From NCBI GenBank assembly GCA_002842035.1, contig PHBP01000004.1, positions 62,001 to 126,000 of the forward strand: 64,000 nucleotides of DNA, in the 5' to 3' direction. The notes beneath the pieces are model-generated. The model was not told where the DNA came from and did no database searches. It saw only the letters and a list, made by a program, of their open reading frames with translations. How positions within the stretch are numbered: position 1 is the first letter of the stretch; every line of letters starts with the position of its first letter. Positions 8,126 through 44,517 of the stretch are shown piece by piece. The DNA is from Candidatus Cloacimonetes bacterium HGW-Cloacimonetes-2. GTDB lineage: Bacteria; Cloacimonadota; Cloacimonadia; Cloacimonadales; Cloacimonadaceae. The translations under genes and the position numbers were made by a program.

Positions 8126-8375
8126 GCTTTCCTTTTCTCACCAAAGCTTTTTTTAGGAGGCAAGGGTTTGTAAGGCGGGAGGACGCGCCTACTCAGAGCG
8201 CTGCACCATATCTGGGGTGGCAAAGTCCTGATTTGTCACAGCGATCGGAGATCGCTAGGTGTTTTGATATAAACAAGTGCACCCTGTAAGCTACTACAGA
8301 TCCCGCATTTCCGCCGGCATTTGTTTGAGTTAAAAGGAAGTTCCGGAACATCATAACCGACTATCACTTGTCGCA

Positions 8376-8746
8376 TTGTTTTAACTCATAAATATGCCGG
8401 TTTTAATCACGTGTTACTATGGGTCTTGTAAGGCAGAATTATCAGTCAAAAACAGTAGCACGGTAGTCTTACAACATTTATGTGGGTGCGTCGTCTTGTC
8501 GCACAGCTTTTCTGAGCGACAGGATGTCGCTCCCACACACCACTCCACCACTCCACCACGGCACGTAACACCCAGCGCTTTCTCTGTGGCAAAGAAAACT
8601 CCTATCTCTTTTACTACTTGTTAAAAGCTCCCCTATTGAATCCCAAGGCAAAACCCTTGCACTGCTCTGGAGATCCCCTTGTCGCCACAAGGGAATCACT
8701 AGGGGATCACTAGGGGATCTCCAGTGGATTCAAGCAGGGACGAAGC
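8376..8746 (-). repeat. Composite intergenic repeat, copy R1 (inverted relative to R2-R4)
   Basis: This fills most of the gene-free interval 8070-8803. On the minus strand it starts at the GCTTCGTCCCTGCTTGAA box (8746-8729). It continues with a 54-base foldable core (8722-8669), a purine-rich stretch with CCACAGAGAAAGCGCTGG, GTGGAGTGG repeats, two small hairpins (GAGCGACA..TGTCGCTC and GTGCG..CGCAC), and a degenerate 23-base inverted repeat whose arms lie at 8432-8454 and 8376-8398. The same modules in the same order form R4 at 43951-44450. The short frames inside have no protein-like content. The remaining part, 8070-8375, shows only a 7-base inverted repeat at 8240-8256 and no gene that I can support. 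Confidence 0.8.
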
Positions 8747-15106: not shown

Positions 15107-15326
15107 GCTTCGTCCCTGCTTGAATCCACTGGAGATCCCCTAGTGATCCCCTAGTGATCCCCTAGTGACGACAAGGGAATCTCCAGAGCAGTGCAAGGGT
15201 TTTACCAGTGTTTTCAAGGGGGGAAAATTTAACAAGGAGTAAAAGAGAAAGGAGTTTTCTTTACCACAGAGAAAGCGCTGGACGTTACGCGATGTGGTGA
15301 AGTGGTGGAGTGGTGTGTGGGAGAGA
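15107..15326 (+). repeat. Composite intergenic repeat, copy R2
   Basis: This lies in the gene-free interval 15057-15391. It starts with GCTTCGTCCCTGCTTGAA, then the 54-base core (15131-15184). Here the core has three TAGTGA units and lacks the inner CCCTTGTGG arm. Next come a purine-rich stretch with CCACAGAGAAAGCGCTGG, then GTGGTGAAGTGGTGGAGTGGTGTGTGGG. The copy fades out where R1 and R4 carry the GAGCGACA hairpin. Nothing else is recognisable in the interval. Confidence 0.8.
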
Positions 15327-27316: not shown

Positions 27317-27389
27317 CCTGCTTGAATTCTCTGGAGATCCCCTAGTGATCCCCTAGTGATTCCCTTGTGGCGACAAGGGGATCTCCCCG
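27317..27389 (+). repeat. Composite intergenic repeat, copy R3 (core only)
   Basis: CCTGCTTGAA, a few bases, then the complete 54-base core at 27333-27386 with outer arms GGAGATCCCC/GGGGATCTCC and inner arms CCCTTGT/ACAAGGG. The downstream modules seen in R1, R2 and R4 are absent. It sits in the gap 27165-27468, which otherwise holds only the promoter of the gene at 24696. Confidence 0.85.
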
Positions 27390-43950: not shown

Positions 43951-44450
43951 CTCCCTGCTTGAATCCATTGGAGATCCCCTGGTGATCCCCTAGTGATTCC
44001 CTTGTGGCGACAAGGGGATCGCCAGAGCAGCGCCGGAGTTTTGCAAGTGGTTTCAAAAGGGAAGGATTTAACAAAGAGCAAAGGAGAAAGAGGGGTTTTA
44101 CCACAGAGAAAGCAGAGAATAGCGGAGAGAAGCAGAGAACAGCGCTACGCGCTGTGATGGAGGGGTGGAGTGGGAGCGACATCTTGTCGCTCGGATTGAC
44201 TGTGCGTCAGGATGACGCACCCACGTTTATTGCTCGGAGGGGTGGAGTGGGAGCGACATCTTGTCGCTCGGATTGACTGTGCGTCAGGATGACGCACCCA
44301 CGTTTAATACTTGGAGTGATGGAGGGGGCGCTACGCGTTGTGATGGAGTGGTGATGTACCGACCACGCTATTGTTTTGACTTATAATTCTGCCTTGATAG
44401 TCTTGAATTGACAAGCTGGTCATTCCCGGCAGAATTATGAGTTAAAACAA
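43951..44450 (+). repeat. Composite intergenic repeat, copy R4 (longest)
   Basis: This fills most of the gene-free interval 43776-44566. It has CTCCCTGCTTGAATCCATTG, the 54-base core at 43970-44023, then CCACAGAGAAAGCAGAGAA and further AGCGGAGAGAAGC-like purine repeats. Two tandem copies of a hairpin pair follow (44159-44306), then a 23-base inverted repeat with arms at 44371-44393 and 44428-44450 (21 of 23 pairs). Homology with R1 continues weakly past the right arm (AAAACAATGC, TATGAT). The rest of the interval, 43776-43950 and 44451-44516, shows nothing I recognise. Confidence 0.8.
44159..44306 (+). repeat. Perfect 71-base tandem duplication with two hairpins per unit
   Basis: Bases 44159-44229 and 44236-44306 are identical (period 77). 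Each unit has GAGCGACA TCT TGTCGCTC (8-base stem, 3-base loop), a short spacer, and GTGCGTC AGGAT GACGCAC (7-base stem, 5-base loop), ending CCCACGTTTA. R1 carries a single diverged unit. Confidence 0.92.
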
Positions 44451-44517
44451 TGCAAGCAGTTGTAGCCGGGTATGATACGCCGGGCTTTCGCTCGTCACAA
44501 TAATTCCTCTTACCAAA

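Follow-up and report, generated by a model that had tools for sequence, protein, structure and literature searches.

The composite repeat at positions 43951–44450 raises the question of what sort of element carries the same series of short repeats and hairpins in the same order at two distant sites. The window, i.e. the whole stretch of 64,000 nucleotides that was analysed, is C11:62001-126000 of a Cloacimonadota genome of 2.5 Mb in 14 contigs. Copies R4 and R1 indeed share the order proposed for them in the initial annotation (core, CCACAGAG stretch, GTGGAGTGG stretch, GAGCGACA hairpin, GTGCG hairpin, inverted repeat), and module mapping (Table 1) confirms that nothing follows the GTGG stretch in R2 or the core in R3. 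The outer limits have to be redrawn, as the 23-base inverted repeat that was taken for the element's end makes up just the left-hand half of module C; R4 continues beyond 44450 to ~44489, and R1 beyond 8376 to ~8201 through C2 and D. The repeat is non-coding, up to ~600 bases long, and present at dozens of intergenic sites. We favor, at a probability of roughly 60%, its interpretation as a BOX-like repeat that is composite, interspersed and non-autonomous.

Table 1. Repeat copies in the window (R1–R4, window positions) and the two forms of the B–C junction elsewhere in the genome (contig:position).
Feature	Position	Strand	Remarks
R4 module A	43952..44066	+	Long imperfect palindrome; terminal inverted repeat TTGAATCC..GGTTTCAA; three 11-nt words GTGATYCCCTN
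R4 modules W1 + W2	44067..44128	+	Word repeats AACAAGGAGTAAAGGAG and ACCACAGAGAAAGCAGAG
R4 module G	44142..44173	+	GCGCTACGCGC hairpin and GTGGAGTGG words
R4 module B, copy 1	44170..44224	+	Head-to-head dimer of GTRG-tagged REP hairpins
R4 module B, copy 2	44247..44301	+	Tandem duplication, period 77 bp
R4 module G, second piece	44326..44353	+	
R4 modules C1 + Cm	44372..44489	+	Without C2
R1 module A	8628..8740	-	
R1 modules W1, W2, G	8538..8625	-	
R1 module B	8481..8537	-	
R1 module C (C1, Cm, C2)	8260..8451	-	Two long hairpins in inverse orientation
R1 module D	8201..8257	-	GCGATC.. and TGGCAAA..TTTGCCA hairpins
R2	15113..15315	+	A, W1, W2, G; without B or C
R3	27317..27386	+	Only the left part of A
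B–C fusion sites	C1:60489, 121427, 159465, 216392, 226556; C13:13186		
B–C spacer form	C1:240596, C14:47278, C14:54077		Spacer AAGNGGGCAGCAATGAC kept

The family is a large one. A 37-nt pattern of the 5′ core, searched across the whole home genome with up to three mismatches, finds 73 sites, and its reversed control none; this count replaces the BLAST count for module A, and BLAST counts of modules are to be read as lower bounds. With a shorter pattern built on the A words the reversed control is useless in the home genome, because GTGATCCCCTAGTG is the same read backwards. R1 and R4 align with E=2e-46, at least 40 further genomic sites align to R4, and the best locus-to-locus matches reach E=4e-80. 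That these likenesses reflect chance or faulty assembly is scarcely credible: the assembly does consist of 14 contigs with repeats at several contig ends, but matches of this strength lie within unrelated flanks, the absence of reversed-pattern matches and the counts refute it, and independent genomes contain the family as well.

Module A, the most numerous module, is ~115 bp long, starts CTYCCTGCTTGAATCCACTGG and ends CCAGTGGTTTCAAAAGGGAAGGA, and forms an imperfect inverted repeat, with imperfect terminal inverted repeats (TIRs), whose interior holds the three 11-nt words and an inner hairpin, CCCTWGTGGCGACWAGGG. An alignment of 64 copies from two genera is almost gapless, with 78.9% of the stem cells paired. 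The arms covary across the two genera, with 138 both-side changes compared to 84 in shuffles (0 of 500), although the count is inflated by relatedness; slid versions give 50–66. No GTRG-stem layout is present at the ends of either A (~115 bp) or module C (~195 bp), and neither passes as a GTAG REP.

These properties bear on whether the copies are structured RNAs or regulatory leaders, maintained by selection and degenerate at their 3′ ends. Stable folding (z of about -7), the covarying pairs, and the fact that G-U outnumbers A-C in the A stems of the home genome would all agree with such a role. However, one strand of R4 folds as well as the other (z of -7.2 and -7.3), so that folding does not discriminate between a role as RNA and one as DNA, and the outer A stem of a second genome of the same family, G009, has no G-U excess. 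Copies occur in every kind of gene arrangement, Rfam covariance models at gathering score give no match in the window, and presence among relatives is patchy, with none in two congeners. We consider the RNA explanation improbable, and the initial suggestion of structured RNAs with truncated 3′ ends is not supported as such; many short copies are internal deletions.

The distribution of A among relatives is uneven. Its word pattern has 194 matches in G009, some of them overlapping by one word, and a few each in G042, G044, G010, G066 and G003; the other 100 of the 107 genomes of the order, including the congeners G001 and G002, have none. In other Cloacimonadota genera A stands alone. In G009 it is either alone or adjoins a GTAG REP, with the junction ..ATTCGCCCCTAC|TTCAATCC; at several G009 sites (L031, L206, L214, L215, L227) A often starts exactly at the CTAC end of the REP (..ATTCGCCCCTAC|..CAATCC), which suggests a shared junction or target. 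Near-perfect palindromes whose arms have other sequences are found in genus g10; the A copies of G044 are nearly perfect palindromes with different but matched arms, TCAATCCCAGCTAA/TTAGCTGGGATTGA. After A in G044 comes a CGTC-type REP in three of seven copies, and W1-like words in one. A search for target-site duplications (TSDs) at 25 stand-alone G009 copies of A gave only a noise-level excess, in line with the initial report of no clear duplication. Downstream of the orthologous PPDK gene, G001, G003, G005 and G009 lack the R1 composite. We also note that an A-type element lies upstream of a DUF1232 gene both in the window (15113-15315) and in G009 (L175:1318-1407), although the genes further upstream differ and the shared element may be a coincidence.

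Iterated comparison of the loci yields a full chain of A, W1, W2, G, B, S, C1, Cm and C2, followed by either D or W4/W5/E, with module B present once, twice or not at all. Across 39 mapped loci the modules downstream of A lie in A's orientation in 182 cases and in the opposite one in 5, and 452 ordered module pairs agree with the chain compared to 14 that disagree. None of 2000 shuffles does as well. The 5′ edge is sharp, with the edges of inter-locus matches clustering at the start of A, and the upstream flanks of matching loci show no similarity apart from other modules.

Several pairs of loci match over hundreds of bases. C1:226762 and C1:60647 match over 604 bp (86%); C14:8697 and C14:28238, at unrelated sites, are colinear from A to the tail with 93% identity over 420 aligned bases; and C14:46987 and C14:53804, also unrelated sites, are colinear over 347 bp (91%). 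In addition, six unrelated sites have in common a derived fusion of B to C, CGCACCCA(C/A)A|(T/A)GTTTTGAC, in which a 25–30-base spacer has been lost. Because derived junctions and near-identical A-to-tail pairs recur at unrelated sites, the joined modules must have been copied together. The initial description as a mosaic interspersed element holds, in the sense that several repeat families which also exist separately have been linked in a constant order and have spread jointly. Short copies had been attributed to 3′ truncation; 3′ losses do occur, but so do internal deletions, and many short copies keep their 3′ modules.

Copying as a unit is not the whole history of every locus. The C segments of C1:216122 and C1:226762 are only 3.6% apart while their A elements are 14.3% apart, and across loci the distances in A correlate weakly with those in C1 (r=0.33, p=0.04) and not significantly with those in the whole of C (r=0.12, p=0.25). 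The corresponding value for A and B (r=-0.01) comes from a weak test, since B is short and nearly uniform. The weak to absent correlation between A and C indicates that not every composite derives from one unbroken unit, and together with near-identical C segments beside divergent A elements it points to exchange between copies, or to recombination onto older A sites. The latter is the basis of the main rival explanation, stepwise assembly, in which older A sites served as landing pads and the right-hand modules spread by recombination or gene conversion, or by sequential preferential insertion. The abundance of A and its solitary occurrence in other genera speak for it, as do the C1:216122/C1:226762 pair, the frequent GTAG REP beside A in G009, and the repeats that follow A in G044. 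We nonetheless regard it as unlikely on the whole, given the derived internal junctions common to unrelated sites and the near-identical A-to-tail pairs. The best reading is that the composite was copied as a unit and then underwent internal deletions, with segments also swapped between copies.

The oddest feature of the A cores is their regional confinement. Contigs C1, C4, C5, C11, C13 and C14 (983 kb, 39% of the genome) hold 65 of the 73 cores, and the others (C2, C3 and C6–C10; 1,524 kb) hold 8; among these, the 271-kb C8 has no core and the 532-kb C2 a single one. The density is ~12 times higher on the rich contigs, with the two groups having been set after the counts were seen; a uniform distribution would place ~29 and ~44 cores in them. 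A chimeric bin was considered as the cause, and samples of tetranucleotide and GC composition do not clearly separate the rich contigs from the poor. The dnaA gene is at C14:55102, on a rich contig, and the long stretch between genes directly upstream of it, which may be the region of the replication origin, contains a composite (C14:53804-54269).

A might be a landmark of a chromosome region, in the form of a protein-binding array of 11-bp-phased words. The 65:8 division, the 11-bp spacing of the words and the composite next to dnaA would suit such a function, yet the contig groups were chosen after the counts and the contigs are unordered, the orientation of A on C1 is mixed, congeners lack A, and modules that look mobile accompany most copies; we hold this to be very improbable. 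A somewhat different proposition, which we put forward tentatively and with little confidence, is that A forms a palindromic family that spans the lineage, has words phased at 11 bp and acts as a fixed left-hand docking site for the assembly and spread of further repeat families, its copies being confined to one part of the chromosome. If true, the spread or retention of A would be tied to chromosome position.

Module B falls into a described class, that of GTAG/GTRG REP dimers. It consists of two hairpins with GTRGG on the outside, GTGGG-AGCGACATCCTGTCGCT and the inverse of GTGGG-TGCGTCATCCTGACGCA, arranged head-to-head (GTGGG-stem ... stem-CCCAC) as in GTAG REP dimers. The tag GT(G/A)GG is present in 44 of 45 aligned copies, each hairpin has an 8-bp stem and a 3-nt loop, and three stem pairs have compensated changes. 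The tag is mostly GTGG in composites and GTAG (the GTAGG form) in copies beside a RAYT-like gene. This gene (C2:456445-456648, 228 aa) is the only Y1_Tnp gene in the home genome, and its product matches PF01797 (45.3 bits) with an HUH motif, NHVHM. The initial annotation had noted the lack of a transposase, and none occurs in or beside the composites, but this single Y1/RAYT-like gene lies elsewhere in the genome and is a possible genome-encoded helper of the kind that was to be sought. B dimers bracket it on both sides, and this fit to the REPtron layout makes it a candidate mover of B, and of B only, there being no link to A or C. The protein may be dead, as it scores 45.9 bits against the NCBIfam RAYT equivalog NF047646, below the cut-off of 80, and is cut at its C-terminus by a REP: the match covers positions 28–118 of 146, short of the C-terminal end of the model, and the REP array supplies the C-terminal codons. 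The gene region (C2:456300-457200) sits between two DNA methyltransferase-like reading frames.

Module C comprises GTTTTGACTTATAATTCTGCC..GGCAGAATTATGAGTTAAAAC, followed by a similar hairpin in inverse orientation, GTTTTAACTCAAACAAATGCC..GGCATTTGTTTAAGTCAAAAC, and unfused copies start mostly with CGCTATTGTTTTGACTTA. A search for an autonomous C element through its left terminus returned only known C copies, and no copy of A or C with a gene inside was found. Module E (GGATTCCTGCC..GCAGGAATGACGG) has a GTCATTCC/GGAATGAC motif. The W1 and W2 words have stand-alone relatives in G021 and G001. Families of 9–11-nt word repeats (CACAGAGAAAAG, AAAGAGGAAAAGAG, GTCCATTTC, TTCACCAC and CAGTGATCAG) are also intergenic in several Cloacimonadota (G001, G021); we found no literature description of these families, and nothing on the CACAGAG word.

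Under the composite-repeat interpretation, the left end would be element A, the palindromic repeat found on its own in relatives, and the word repeats, the GTRG-REP dimer, the inverted-repeat pair of C and the D/E hairpins would have joined its right side. The joined chain would then have been copied as a unit into many places between genes, after which copies would have eroded by internal deletion and exchanged segments. The copying would have been by transposition in trans, most likely through a hairpin-recognising enzyme of the HUH/Y1 type acting on single-stranded DNA hairpins, which we infer from the palindromic modules, the lack of a TSD and the resident HUH gene. Against the interpretation as a whole, no TSD, defined right end or autonomous copy was found.

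Comparison with known systems places the composite among modular small repeats. In the intergenic mosaic elements of Neisseria several short repeat families are interleaved between genes and flank one another in variable order, whereas one order and orientation dominate here. The closer likeness is to BOX of Streptococcus pneumoniae (boxA-boxB-boxC), which is 67–637 bp long, present in ~125 copies and thought to be parasitic (PMC3049150). Both are non-coding and modular, with a fixed order (452:14 pairs here), a middle module of variable number (here B), lone modules and modules that fold (PMC3049150). BOX is reported with TIRs and TSDs; here A has imperfect TIRs, and the 25 G009 copies gave no TSD signal. 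The present parts include REP dimers and word repeats, in another phylum. We would thus set the composite beside BOX by build, a likeness drawn from the description of BOX and not its sequences, and not file it as a BOX member. GTAG REP dimers, BIMEs, and the REPtron layout of a Y1 transposase gene flanked by its REPs, are described elsewhere (PMC3733652, PMC2817692), and module B resembles them in tag, stem, loop, dimer arrangement and flanked Y1 gene. The differences are that A and C are without the tag layout and longer than the 20–40 bp palindrome, and that the RAYT-like gene, besides being divergent, has a truncated C-terminus. Module E and the repeat after A in G044, both with the GTCATTCC/GGAATGAC motif, are provisionally assigned by that motif to the CGTC-type REP superfamily (PMC3733652), which concerns only the last module of the composite. 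The initial view that this is not a described family thus holds for the whole, with no Rfam match and no literature found on repeats of such kind in Cloacimonadota, but not for module B. Few bacteria are known to have small modular repeats of the BOX sort, and how these spread is still unsolved. In the present case one can see the parts, the joined unit and its deletion derivatives, both within one genome and across genera of an uncultured phylum, with one part linked to a RAYT-like gene of the same genome, so that the order of assembly, and movement of the composite through its REP part, become testable by strain comparison. On the best reading, the composite is new in its parts and its host, and BOX-like in kind.
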